A stretch of DNA of 64,000 nt, from contig PHCB01000003.1 in the NCBI GenBank assembly GCA_002842095.1, positions 1-64,000 on the forward strand. The letters run 5' to 3'. This DNA comes from a candidate division BRC1 bacterium HGW-BRC1-1. Lineage in GTDB: Bacteria; Sumerlaeota; Sumerlaeia; Sumerlaeales; Sumerlaeaceae. Made by a program: the position numbers and the translations under genes. This document shows, piece by piece, positions 41,230-47,034 of this stretch (position 1 is the stretch's first letter; every line of letters begins with the position of its first letter). The notes beneath the pieces were generated by a model. It did no database searches. It had not been told where the DNA came from and worked only from the letters and a program-made list of their open reading frames with translations.

Positions 41230-41258
41230 TTGACAGACCGGCGTTTTCTTTCACAATA
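41230..41258 (+). promoter_or_regulatory. Possible sigma-70-type promoter for the Hsp70-kinase gene
   Basis: A perfect TTGACA lies at 41230-41235. The best -10 candidate about 17 bases on is ACAATA, a poor match. This would place a transcription start about 90 bases before the start codon. Tentative. Confidence 0.3.
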
Positions 41259-41355
41259 TCCGATTTTGGTATGGACCCTCTGGGGAGATGGGTTGTTGCA
41301 TTGAAATCGCTCAGTGGCATCATTTTTGTTCAGCAACGGACGGCGGACTTACGGC

Positions 41356-44300
41356 ATGGTGGACTCTGAACACATTATCGGCATAGACCTCGGCACCACA
41401 AATTCGGTGGTGGCGATACTTGAGGACGATCAACCTCGCGTGCTGATCAATAGTGAGGGATCCACACGAACACCATCGGTCATCTGCATTCTGGAAAACG
41501 GCGACGTGCAGGTGGGCGAGCTGGCCCGGCGCCAGGCTGCCATCAATCCGTCGCGCACCATTACCAGTGTGAAGCGCCTCATGGGCCAGACCCTTGAGGA
41601 TGTGGCCTCATTGCGCGATCGCCTCTCCTTTGCTCTTACGGCCGATGAAGGCAATCTCTACGTTCAGGTGGGCGAGAAGGGCTACACGCCCGCTCAGTTG
41701 TCCGCATACATTTTGCGCAAATTGAAGCAAGCCGCCGAAGATTACGTGGGCGAACCAGTCACCAAGGCGATCATCACGGTGCCGGCGTATTTCGATGACG
41801 TACAGCGTCAGGAGACGATGGACGCCGGGCGTTTGGCGGGACTGGATGTGCTGCGCCTCATCAACGAGCCCACGGCTGCGGCCATGGCTTATGGCCTGGG
41901 GCGCACCACCCAGGAGCGCGTGGTGGTGTTCGATTTCGGGGGCGGCACCTTCGACGTGTCCATTCTCGACATCGATAACAACGCCTTCGAAGTGCAGACA
42001 AGCTTGGGCGACACGCAACTGGGCGGCGACGACATCGATGATCTGGTGATCAATTACCTACTCGACCAGTTTCGCCAGGTGGCCGGGGCGGATTATCAGC
42101 CCGACCCCATGGCATTGCGCCGCCTGCGCGAGGCTGCGGAGAAAGCCAAATGCGATTTGAGCGTGGCGCGTCAGTCGCTCATCCAACTCCCCTTCCTCTC
42201 GCAGGCCGATAACAACCCCCTGCATCTTGAGATAACTCTGGCGCGCGATACGCTCGAGGAGTTGATAGAGCCTCTGGTGGAGCGCGCCATCGACATTTGC
42301 GAGCGGGCTTTGGAAGATTGTGGACTGCAAGCCAACGAGATCGACCGTGTGCTTATGGTGGGGGGCTCCACGCGCATACCACTGGTACAAACCGCCGTGG
42401 GCGATTTTTTCGGGATCGCGCCGTTCAAGGGTCTTAACCCCGACGAGATTGTGGCCATGGGCGCGGCCACCCAGGCGGGCGTCATGGCGGGCAAATTAAA
42501 GGAAGTTATTCTGCTGGATGTGACGCCCCACTCGCTGGGTGTGGAAGTGGCGGATAACCGCATTTCGCGCATCATTGAGAAAAACTCGACGATCCCCATC
42601 AAGGCCGCACGGCTCTTTACGACAACCGATGACAATCAGGAAATTGTGCAGGTGCACGTGGTGCAGGGCGAGGAGGAAAAGGCCGCCGACAATCGCTCGT
42701 TGGGCCGCTTCACGCTGACGGGCATCCAGCCCTCCCGCGCCGGAGGCCCCCGCATTCAGGTTGTGTTCCATATCAATGCCGACGGCATGGTGGAGGTGCT
42801 GGCCGAAGACATGGCCACACGCGAGCAGGTGACTATGAACCTGTCCATCTCCTCCGAAGATGCAGGCTCGGGTTCTCCCGATGGCACCGCCAGCCGCCGC
42901 CGCGCGCAGATGCGCCGACGCAAACCACGCAAAGGTCGCAAATCCGGTTCGACCCAGGACACTTCGGAAATTATTGTTCCGAATGCTCCTGTTGGAGGGA
43001 AGAGTCGGCCCGGGCAAAGTTTCTCGCTGAAGGGTGGTGTGCAGCCGTCGTTCCACACGCTGGCACCGTCGCAGCCGGAAGAGGCGATGGCCCCCGTGTT
43101 TCTTTCCGCGACGGAGCAACCTGATGTGGGGGTGGAGCAAACACCAGCCCCGCCCGTGAAGGCAGAAAAACCAAAATCAAAATCTTCTGAAGTGAAGCCT
43201 TCGTTACCGCCCGCCGAAACCCAACCCCGGGACGAAACGCCGGTGCCGGCTGCAAAGAAACCGCGCGAACGTTTGGCGGCAACTCCCGCGAACCTGAGTG
43301 ATCTCGGCAAGCAGGCACTCGATTACGTGCGCAAGGGGATCGCGTCGGCCACGGCGTTGACAACGTGCGTGCGTGCCTATCAGGAACTGGTCGACTACAC
43401 CACCGCCAATCCGGAGGACGCCGATGTTCTGGAGCATACGGTGAAGCTGCTGCTTCAGATTAACGAGCCGGATCTCGCCTCGCATTTGCTCAGCCATGTC
43501 GAAACGGCCAAGGCTCTGTCGGGCGAGAAACTGGCCTCGCTGTATGATTTGTATCTGGCGAAATTCCCGGACGATGATATTGCGGTTACTAACCGTGCCT
43601 GGGTTCTGGCTTCCACAGGACTCGTGGACGTGGCCATCGCAGATTTCGAGCGGGTTTGCGGCGACGAGCGCGGAACGGATGCGCAGGTTGAGCAACTCAT
43701 TCTTCTGTATAACAACAAGCTCAGCACCCGCGACGACCACAGCATCCGGTTCAAATTGGTGAAGCTGCTCGTGCGGCGGGGGCGTGTGGATGAAGCCATC
43801 AATCTGTTGCAGCAGCTCATCAACATCGACAGCTATCGCCAGCGTTCGTTGCAGGCTCTCGGTTTCTGCTTCTGGCAAAAAGGGATGCACTACCTCGCCT
43901 GGCAGAAATTCCAGCAGCTTCCACTGAACGACGAACTGCGCGACATCCTGTATCGTCTCGCCAGCGACATGGAAGACACCGAACAGTTGCTGAACGCCAA
44001 AAGCGTGTGGCAGCATCTGGCGGAGAGCGATTCGGGTTACCGCGATGTGCAATCGCGTTTGCGCAAATGCGAAGTGGCTCTGCGCGCGCAGGGCTCGCCG
44101 GGGACCGGCCCCGAGCACGACAGCGTTCCGGTCGGCTTCCGCAATTCACGGTTCAACATTCTGGAAGAGGCCAACCGCGGTTCCATGGGCATTGTGTATC
44201 GCGCCAAGGACAAGGTGCTCGATGAGATCGTCGCGCTGAAAGTTCTCAACGATTACATGACCAGCGATCCGCGCGCCGTGGAGCGGTTCAAGCGCGAGGC

Positions 44301-44928
44301 CCGCGCCGCGCGCAAGCTGTCGCACCACAACATCGTGCGCATCCACGACATGTATGAGTTCGGCACGAAGCGGCTCATCAGCATGGAGTTCATCGATGGG
44401 CGCGACCTGAAGGCCATCCTTCACCAGCGCAAGGTGCTGCCGCCGGAGGAGATCATCCCGATCATTCTGAGCGTGTGCGATGCGCTGGCCTACGCGCACC
44501 AACTGGGCATCGTGCATCGCGATGTGAAACCGGCCAACGTCATGATTACCAGCAAGGGCGAAGTGAAGGTGACCGACTTCGGCATCGCGAAGTTCATTCT
44601 GTCGGGCTCGCCCGAGCAGACCCGGTCGGGCTCACAGATTCTGGGCACGCCGCTATACATGTCGCCCGAGCAAATCCGCGGCGAACAGATCGACGTGCGC
44701 ACCGACATCTATTCCATCGGTGCCATGTTGTACGAAATGACCAGCGGCCGTCCCCCCTTCCACGAGGGTAATATCGAGTACCACCATCTGCACACGGTCC
44801 CCGCCCCCATGCCCGAAACGGTGCCCCTGAAGCTGGGCGAAATCATCGCCCGATGCCTCGAAAAAGAGCCAGAAAACCGCTATGCGGATGTGCCCGCATT
44901 GCAGGTCGATTTAAAAACAGTTTTGTAA
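41356..44928 (+). CDS. Hsp70 (DnaK-like)-TPR-Ser/Thr protein kinase fusion
   Basis: Encodes 1190 residues in one uninterrupted frame. Residues about 5-380 are a complete Hsp70 nucleotide-binding domain: GIDLGTTNS, INEPTAAAMAYGL, VFDFGGGTFDVS and VGGSTRIPLVQ. The interdomain linker region VILLDVTPHSLGVE leads to a beta substrate-binding domain (about 395-497) with VHVVQGEEEKAADN and LGRFTLTGI. The helical lid is absent. It is replaced by a basic linker (RRRKPRKGRK), a Pro/Lys-rich stretch and a TPR-like helical region (about 650-915). The last 260 residues are a Hanks-type kinase: glycine loop RGSMGIVY, Lys962 in ALKVL, HRD with Asp1056 (VHRDVKPAN), DFG with Asp1074 and SPEQIRG. All key residues are present. 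It is cytosolic. ATG 41356 opens directly on the Hsp70 domain. A TPR protein gene follows. Confidence 0.95.
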   Translation: MVDSEHIIGIDLGTTNSVVAILEDDQPRVLINSEGSTRTPSVICILENGDVQVGELARRQAAINPSRTITSVKRLMGQTLEDVASLRDRLSFALTADEGNLYVQVGEKGYTPAQLSAYILRKLKQAAEDYVGEPVTKAIITVPAYFDDVQRQETMDAGRLAGLDVLRLINEPTAAAMAYGLGRTTQERVVVFDFGGGTFDVSILDIDNNAFEVQTSLGDTQLGGDDIDDLVINYLLDQFRQVAGADYQPDPMALRRLREAAEKAKCDLSVARQSLIQLPFLSQADNNPLHLEITLARDTLEELIEPLVERAIDICERALEDCGLQANEIDRVLMVGGSTRIPLVQTAVGDFFGIAPFKGLNPDEIVAMGAATQAGVMAGKLKEVILLDVTPHSLGVEVADNRISRIIEKNSTIPIKAARLFTTTDDNQEIVQVHVVQGEEEKAADNRSLGRFTLTGIQPSRAGGPRIQVVFHINADGMVEVLAEDMATREQVTMNLSISSEDAGSGSPDGTASRRRAQMRRRKPRKGRKSGSTQDTSEIIVPNAPVGGKSRPGQSFSLKGGVQPSFHTLAPSQPEEAMAPVFLSATEQPDVGVEQTPAPPVKAEKPKSKSSEVKPSLPPAETQPRDETPVPAAKKPRERLAATPANLSDLGKQALDYVRKGIASATALTTCVRAYQELVDYTTANPEDADVLEHTVKLLLQINEPDLASHLLSHVETAKALSGEKLASLYDLYLAKFPDDDIAVTNRAWVLASTGLVDVAIADFERVCGDERGTDAQVEQLILLYNNKLSTRDDHSIRFKLVKLLVRRGRVDEAINLLQQLINIDSYRQRSLQALGFCFWQKGMHYLAWQKFQQLPLNDELRDILYRLASDMEDTEQLLNAKSVWQHLAESDSGYRDVQSRLRKCEVALRAQGSPGTGPEHDSVPVGFRNSRFNILEEANRGSMGIVYRAKDKVLDEIVALKVLNDYMTSDPRAVERFKREARAARKLSHHNIVRIHDMYEFGTKRLISMEFIDGRDLKAILHQRKVLPPEEIIPIILSVCDALAYAHQLGIVHRDVKPANVMITSKGEVKVTDFGIAKFILSGSPEQTRSGSQILGTPLYMSPEQIRGEQIDVRTDIYSIGAMLYEMTSGRPPFHEGNIEYHHLHTVPAPMPETVPLKLGEIIARCLEKEPENRYADVPALQVDLKTVL

Positions 44929-44973: not shown

Positions 44974-45063
44974 TGATTTTGGCGATTTATGTTGCCTTTC
45001 AGCGCCCCATTTCCTACGATTTAACTGAATCGGACATCAGTCAAATTGGGAGGGTTTTGGGAT

Positions 45064-47034
45064 ATGACTAAAGCTGTCGTTTGTCCAGAATGTGGGTCCT
45101 TGGAGACGCATTTTAGCAAGTCTCGGGGTGAGTGGATTTGTGATAGTTGTAATCACCGGTACGTTGCACCGGTCGCTAAGAGGAGAAGTCCCAAAACCTC
45201 AACCCGCCCCCTGCACGAACTCGCCATTGAGAATGCATGGTGGCACAAAAGCCTTGCCGAAAAATGGAACGGCATCGCTCTCTGCCGTGAGAAGAATGGG
45301 CAGCTCGAGGACGCACTTGAAGCGTCAAGAATCTCCCTCGATATCACGCGTTGTCTCTGTATCCTGGACGGCGAAAACCTTGAGTGGGCTCGCGACCTCG
45401 CCGAGTCTTTAATTCAGCTGGCCCATGTGTTGGAAGTGCTGGGGAGGTTCGACGAAGCTCTCGAGGTGTATAACTCTGAATTCTGTCTCCGCCAATACTT
45501 GTGCGAATCCCAACCCTCGATTGCCGCACCGATACATGATCTTGCCATGGCTTGCGGCCGTCTCGGACACATTCGCGAATTGAAGGATATGTCCGCAGAG
45601 ACTCTCGCTGGCTACGAGGGCGGACTCGCCATCATGCGATTGCTTTATACGGAGAAGGTGCTGAACGCGGAATGGCAGATCGACTTTGCCGTGTTAGCCG
45701 ATAATGTGGGCCGTCTCAGCAATTCGCAGGGCAAGATCGACGAGGCCGTCGAGGCGTATCGGGATTACCTCGCCATCATGCAATACCTCTGTCAGCAGAA
45801 CCCGTTAAACGCAAGGTGGCGAGCCGACTTGGCTGGGAAGTCATTCATCATTGCCGGCCTCCGACAAGAGCTGGGTATGCTCGACGAAGCAATAGAGGCC
45901 TATGAAATTTGCGTCGAACACAGGGGATACCTCTGTGAGCTGTATCCTGAGGATTCAAAATTCAGGACTCTCCTCGCCACGGCATGGAATTTCCTGGGTC
46001 AGGCCCACAAGGCGAAGGGAAGATTCGATGATGCAGCCCGGGCATTGGATGAGGATCTCAAGATTACACGCCTTCTCTGCGAAGAAGACCCGGAAGATGC
46101 TGAGAAGCAGCACAGCCTGTCGCTCACATGGAATTCCATCGGTACACTTTATCTGGATCAGGGGAGACTCGATCAAGCCCTCGAGTCCTACGAGGCCGAC
46201 CTCGCGATTCTTAGATGCCTTTGCGAGGATGACCCTGACAACGATGAATTGCAGCGCGATTTGTCTATGACCCTGGTTTCTATCGGCGCTGTCCGCGACG
46301 CCCAGGGGTTGGGTGACGAGGCAATAAAGTCCCATGAAGCTTCGCTCGAAATTCGACGCCGTATCCATGAGGAGGATCCGGAAAACACAGTGGGACAGTA
46401 TGACGTTGCCAATTCATGGGCTCATATCGGCTGCGCACGCGAGACGAACTGCATGATGGACGGAGCGGCCGAGGCGTTTCAAAACGCGATCACAATATTG
46501 GACAATCTTTGCGAGCATGATCCTCAAGAGCCCAATTGGCCACGGTACCTCGCAAAGGTCTGGAATCGCATGGGATGCGTTCTGGAAGAACAGGACAAAA
46601 TTGATGAGGCCGTTGAGGCCCATAACAAGGAACTCGCCCTGATTGCGAGTGTCTGCGAGCAGAACCCTTACGATGCGGATATGCAGTACGAACTGTACAC
46701 GGCGCAATACCGCCTGGCCTCAGTTAATGAAGCCAATGGTGATTTGGAGGAGGCGCTGGAAGCATTCAAAGAAGCTGCCAGAACGCTCCGCCATCTCATT
46801 GTTCACCACCCGGAAAAAGCGGCATGGTGCAGGGAGCAGGCTTGGACGTGTGTTTACGCGGGCGAGATTCTTGAAGGACAGGACAGGTTCCTCGAGGCCC
46901 AGGTGTACCAGCGCGAGGCGCATCGTCTCTTCGCACAACTGCAAGAACGTGGTGTGGAACTCAATGAGGAAGACCTAAACGAACTGGGAGACCTAAATGC
47001 GAAGTTCGGACCTGGCGGCAGCTTGTCCGCCTGA
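45064..47034 (+). CDS. Zinc-ribbon protein with about eleven long TPR-like repeats
   Basis: Encodes 656 residues. The N-terminus is a zinc ribbon: CPECGS (about 7-12) and CDSCNH (about 28-33), 21 residues apart. From about 55 to 640 there are tandem helical repeats of about 48 residues with the pattern DP-x2-x-W/L-x3-LA-x5-G-x6-G-x2-DEA-x3-Y-x3-LAI-x2-LC. Cys recurs at the same place in most units. Such arrays bind proteins. There is no signal peptide or membrane helix. GGGAGGG lies 10 bases before ATG 45064. It follows the Hsp70-kinase gene on the same strand; TPR proteins are classic Hsp70 partners, so it may be a partner or kinase substrate (inference). GC is lower than in the Hsp70-kinase gene. 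Confidence 0.88.
   Translation: MTKAVVCPECGSLETHFSKSRGEWICDSCNHRYVAPVAKRRSPKTSTRPLHELAIENAWWHKSLAEKWNGIALCREKNGQLEDALEASRISLDITRCLCILDGENLEWARDLAESLIQLAHVLEVLGRFDEALEVYNSEFCLRQYLCESQPSIAAPIHDLAMACGRLGHIRELKDMSAETLAGYEGGLAIMRLLYTEKVLNAEWQIDFAVLADNVGRLSNSQGKIDEAVEAYRDYLAIMQYLCQQNPLNARWRADLAGKSFIIAGLRQELGMLDEAIEAYEICVEHRGYLCELYPEDSKFRTLLATAWNFLGQAHKAKGRFDDAARALDEDLKITRLLCEEDPEDAEKQHSLSLTWNSIGTLYLDQGRLDQALESYEADLAILRCLCEDDPDNDELQRDLSMTLVSIGAVRDAQGLGDEAIKSHEASLEIRRRIHEEDPENTVGQYDVANSWAHIGCARETNCMMDGAAEAFQNAITILDNLCEHDPQEPNWPRYLAKVWNRMGCVLEEQDKIDEAVEAHNKELALIASVCEQNPYDADMQYELYTAQYRLASVNEANGDLEEALEAFKEAARTLRHLIVHHPEKAAWCREQAWTCVYAGEILEGQDRFLEAQVYQREAHRLFAQLQERGVELNEEDLNELGDLNAKFGPGGSLSA

Follow-up and report, generated by a model that had tools for sequence, protein, structure and literature searches.

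We have found that a 64,000-nucleotide stretch of Sumerlaeota DNA (the window) contains a complete gene (41356..44928, on the plus strand, as are all features of the gene given below) whose 1190-residue product joins an Hsp70 chaperone to a Hanks-type Ser/Thr kinase by way of a disordered linker and an arm of TPR-like helices. The assignment is based on Pfam matches and on relatives encoded in one frame in 27 further genomes. Chaperones and kinases usually come together as distinct polypeptides, the Hsp90-Cdc37-kinase system being an example, and whilst the domains of the fusion are known, their combination appears to be new. The retention of the fusion across this little-studied phylum suggests a direct link between the handling of proteins and their phosphorylation. 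The reading we tentatively favour, at somewhat less than an even chance, is of a cytosolic chaperone-kinase that arose in one ancient fusion and in which the Hsp70 part would recruit clients for a tethered kinase, with no rigid gate between the two.

The frame encoding the fusion is open over 41314-44928. The ATG at 41356 agrees with the start of the Hsp70 part in relatives, and an in-frame GTG at 41314 offers an alternative start. A possible sigma-70-type promoter, TTGACA-16-CACAAT, lies upstream (41230..41257); it is a consensus match only, in a region where the number of such sites is no higher than chance. Pfam matches HSP70 to residues 7-500 (607.5 bits, profile positions 1-500 of 599) and Pkinase to residues 941-1177 (185 bits against a cut-off of 31.7). 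The TPR matches between them are weak, each falling under the cut-off, and Pfam gives no match to a PilZ domain in the window protein. An AlphaFold2 model of the full chain (mean pLDDT 79, pTM 0.50), which does not give the relative placement of the domains, contains an Hsp70 ATPase domain, a beta substrate-binding domain (SBD-beta), a disordered stretch, a helical solenoid and a kinase, and has no lid; the TPR-kinase part modelled by itself has a mean pLDDT of 86.7. Pfam, these models and the relatives all uphold an earlier note on this DNA, which had described an Hsp70, TPR-like helices and a kinase in one open frame and had called for the structure prediction. Hydropathy analysis reveals no membrane helix in the fusion protein, which is predicted to be soluble and cytosolic.

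The Hsp70 part is about 50% identical to DnaK over the nucleotide-binding domain (NBD) and SBD-beta. It scores 673.8 bits against the NCBIfam profile PRK00290 (cut-off 648) and 651.3 bits against TIGR02350 (cut-off 822.55). The NBD (residues 7-380, 41374..42495; Pfam, alignment and structure match) aligns with the DnaK NBD structure 7rax across 385 residues (Z 56.2, rmsd 1.5). Equivalents of DnaK D8, K70, E171, D194, T199 and D201 are all present (26-27 fusion copies), and the catalytic residues are invariant or nearly so among 27 copies, as is the interdomain linker VxLLD. In the window protein this linker reads VILLDV (residues 384-389, 42505..42522) and aligns with DnaK 389-VLLLDV. The fusion Hsp70s also retain R167, N170, D148, E217, V218, P143 and R151 (DnaK numbering), together with the hydrophobic pocket positions F426, V436, I438 and I472 (I or V). 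Y145, K155 and several GrpE-contact positions have diverged, leaving the dependence on co-chaperones uncertain.

The SBD-beta (residues 390-500, 42523..42855; Pfam, alignment and AlphaFold2 model) has an altered arch. When the arch and lid-contact residues of 27 fusion copies are set against those of 37 DnaKs, position M404 is Lys or Glu in 23 of the fusion copies and Leu in 36 of the DnaKs. Position A429 is Thr in all 27 fusion copies, 22 of which have Lys or Arg at V407 and 18 of which have Ala at R467, a lid-latch residue of DnaK; the window protein itself has Ala, Thr and Ala at positions M404, A429 and R467, respectively. This remodelling suggests a narrower or different range of clients, and a charged arch could even mean that peptide binding has been lost. 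The rewritten arch also weakens the proposal in the earlier note of a switch responding to unfolded protein, since it favours particular clients over unfolded protein in general. Unlike DnaK, the fusion has neither helical lid nor tail, and it carries 690 further residues including the kinase. No helical lid follows SBD-beta either in the Pfam match, which ends at 500 of 599, or in the AlphaFold2 model. A naturally lidless Hsp70 that has long been under selection should help in exploring the purpose of the lid.

In place of the lid, as the earlier note had also recognized, there is a Pro-rich linker (residues 501-642, 42856..43281; alignment and AlphaFold2 model), which the model renders as disordered over about 504-642, with pLDDT values of about 24-41 in the linker. 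Among relatives the linker varies from 86 to 265 residues and its sequence is not conserved. Near its start the window protein has an Arg/Lys-rich stretch (about residues 513-530), and a basic block of 7-12 Lys/Arg per window of 20 lies behind SBD-beta in 26 of the 28 relatives, the exceptions being G006 (5 Lys/Arg) and G039 (2 Lys/Arg). By eye, many relatives have after SBD-beta a stretch similar to the beginning of lid helix A of DnaK, as in the motif HSxLxxxE, and in many of them this helix-A-like stretch is then followed by the basic block.

The linker leads into a TPR-like solenoid of 15 helices (residues 644-913, 43285..44094; AlphaFold2 models and sub-cut-off Pfam matches), in agreement with the helices proposed earlier, and then into a PknB-like Ser/Thr kinase (residues 930-1190, 44143..44925; Pfam, alignment and structure match). 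All the Hanks-type hallmarks are found in the kinase, namely the Gly loop, VAxK, HRDxKxxN, DFG and the activation loop. Lys962, Asp1056 and Asp1074 are as the earlier note gave them, accompanied in the window protein by G942, N1061 and an activation-loop T/S, and the catalytic residues do not vary among the 26-28 copies that extend over them. The kinase is of the RD type with a conserved activation-loop T/S. PknB kinases are the best solved structural relatives of the TPR-kinase model. The fusion differs from PknB-type kinases in its lack of PASTA repeats and a membrane helix (profile match and hydropathy) and in the C-terminal position of the kinase behind the TPR arm; a PASTA kinase profile scores 300 bits against a cut-off of 450, in a match confined to the kinase part.

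A search of 40 genomes of the phylum, with inspection of the loci, showed that 28 encode the fusion as one open frame, which is complete in 24 and cut at a contig end in four (G024, G028, G035 and G036, the contig of the last being L107). Five more genomes have contig-end pieces only, with both halves in G014 and G016 and the Hsp70 half in G017, G023 and G038. The fusion was not seen in this search of 40 genomes in G003, G012, G020, G022, G025 or G027; three fusion-less genomes belong to one family (f6), where loss is possible. A motif scan of the named genomes found kinase motifs everywhere and at least one true relative, L107. Identity to the window protein is 44-56% for matches over the full chain and falls to 39-45% in G039, the most distant relative and the one fusion genome outside the window's class. 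Domain by domain, the median identity is 56% in both the ATPase domain and SBD-beta, 47% in the kinase-proximal TPR and 60% in the kinase, compared with 16% in the linker. The 56-60% in the enzyme domains implies that both enzymes are constrained, whilst the linker sequence is free to drift.

An assembly or gene-calling artefact joining two genes has a negligible probability, as 28 independent genomes with unrelated neighbours carry the identical architecture. The one-frame fusion in these genomes rules out the sequencing error that had been named earlier as a possible refutation. No evidence supporting an artefact was found; in the G002 fusion gene a run of N separates the two halves of the Hsp70 part.

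The two halves were placed in separate trees. The Hsp70 tree has 81 domains, in which E. coli DnaK, HscA and HscC, the phylum's remaining Hsp70s and Hsp70s from other phyla stand beside 27 fusion copies; these copies cluster together with support of 0.97. The kinase tree has 78 domains, and its 26 fusion copies likewise cluster, with support of 0.98 when G039 is left out and only 0.35 when it is included; G039 is the first to branch in both trees. With each half of the fusion clustering in its own tree, one ancient fusion is the simplest history, and the data fit a single event predating the diversification of the phylum. The fusion kinase adjoins the long TPR-kinases of the phylum, the nearest being those of about 1630 residues. 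These proteins, such as a 1629-residue frame of the window genome, have in common with the fusion the proximal TPR and an NRG[SA]MG-like glycine loop but have no Hsp70 part. We infer that a DnaK-type Hsp70 with a lost lid was joined to a TPR-kinase. The 1629-residue TPR and kinase frame lies on G000 C21, L009 and L106, and most genomes of the phylum contain relatives of it.

Beyond the phylum, no counterpart was seen among the matches listed, nor in 30 genomes rich in kinases. The search outside the phylum covered 383 genomes from many phyla, for the most part a few from each family, and scored the two best candidates of each genome. Apart from two genomes of the window's phylum, the matches listed (down to about 526 bits) are all Hsp70s whose frames run to 611-815 residues; a fusion with the closeness of most copies would top this list, whilst one as remote as that of G039 (about 484 bits for the Hsp70 part) could fall below the listed matches. 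Among 30 kinase-rich genomes of other phyla, the 14 loci with long Hsp70 frames that were examined have no kinase in that frame. No Hsp70-kinase fusion was met elsewhere in these samples, and rare, distant or independent cases are possible. The open-licence literature searched yielded no description of such a fusion. The nearest precedent is provided by the PilZ-DnaK chaperones CsdK1 and CsdK2 of Myxococcus xanthus, in which an Hsp70 and a signalling domain occupy one chain and which have a known client, CdbS, that they probably stabilize; they differ from the fusion in having a c-di-GMP-binding PilZ domain and no kinase (PMC10313047). Two PilZ-Hsp70 frames of this known kind (PMC10313047) were encountered at L303:3651-7133 (G174) and L304:4325-8188 (G074). 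In the L303 frame the match to PilZ is weak, and that to the Hsp70 profile, like the fusion's, ends at position 500 of 599; this protein may therefore lack a lid as well. Forty contigs classed as viral (L262-L301) have Hsp70 genes 41-49% identical to that of the window, with no frames of more than 750 residues seen among them.

We envisage that an ATP-dependent Hsp70 cycle, probably assisted by general J-proteins, would capture a restricted range of clients, whether proteins or peptides. The lidless domain would hold a client only briefly, and meanwhile the flexible linker could bring the kinase to the held client, or to a partner bound by the TPR arm, and phosphorylation would follow. General J-proteins are the probable helpers because none is encoded beside the fusion. 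It is possible, and we hold it with still more reserve, that the Hsp70 ATP cycle picks the targets of the kinase throughout the phylum, so that protein folding state would be converted to phosphorylation within one polypeptide. The fusion, kept with both active sites intact, can be regarded as a natural experiment asking whether client recognition by a chaperone can specify phosphorylation.

The earlier note had suggested that the Hsp70 part gates or targets the kinase. Targeting is compatible with the evidence presented here, but gating by ATP state is less favoured, since the halves are parted by a disordered and unconserved linker, and so long a tether favours client recruitment to the kinase over a rigid gate. 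An allosteric gate, in which the client or nucleotide state of the Hsp70 would switch kinase autophosphorylation and make the protein a direct sensor of protein stress, is consequently unlikely, even though the Hsp70 allosteric residues (the VxLLD linker, P143, R151 and R167) are kept, an RD kinase with a conserved activation-loop T/S is suggestive of control by autophosphorylation, and the basic block behind SBD-beta could be a contact surface in most relatives. The absence of a CIRCE-type heat-shock site upstream of the 24 fusion genes inspected likewise counts against such a sensor.

The kinase might instead tune the chaperone, by phosphorylating the Hsp70 part to which it is joined, or J-proteins and other Hsp70s, in response to a signal read by the TPR arm. 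The grouping of the kinase and proximal TPR with the TPR-kinases of the phylum, from which it follows that the TPR-kinase input may predate the fusion, is in keeping with this arrangement, which we nonetheless regard as distinctly improbable. It is more doubtful still that the Hsp70 part and basic block serve for localization, placing the kinase at ribosomes, the nucleoid or aggregates without a folding cycle. The presence of the basic block in all but two relatives would suit this role, but the block is missing in the most distant of them, and fully conserved ATPase residues and interdomain linker would be unnecessary.

The neighbouring genes of the fusion are common only to small groups of close relatives. 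An operon partner or dedicated J-protein was considered and rejected, as no neighbour is widely conserved and J-domain genes are located elsewhere; two of the three other Hsp70 genes of G004 have a J-domain gene within 3 kb, and the fusion has none so close. On C21 a J-domain gene near the paralogous TPR-kinase is a suggestive pairing, unrepeated in the genomes compared. The gene downstream of the fusion in the window (45046-47034), whose adjacency to it is not conserved, encodes a TPR-rich protein with a zinc-ribbon-like N-terminus. At the end of contig C21 of the window genome (L258:1490-2745), a DnaJ-type frame gives way after about 80 residues to sequence resembling a patatin-type lipase, possibly reflecting a chimeric contig end.
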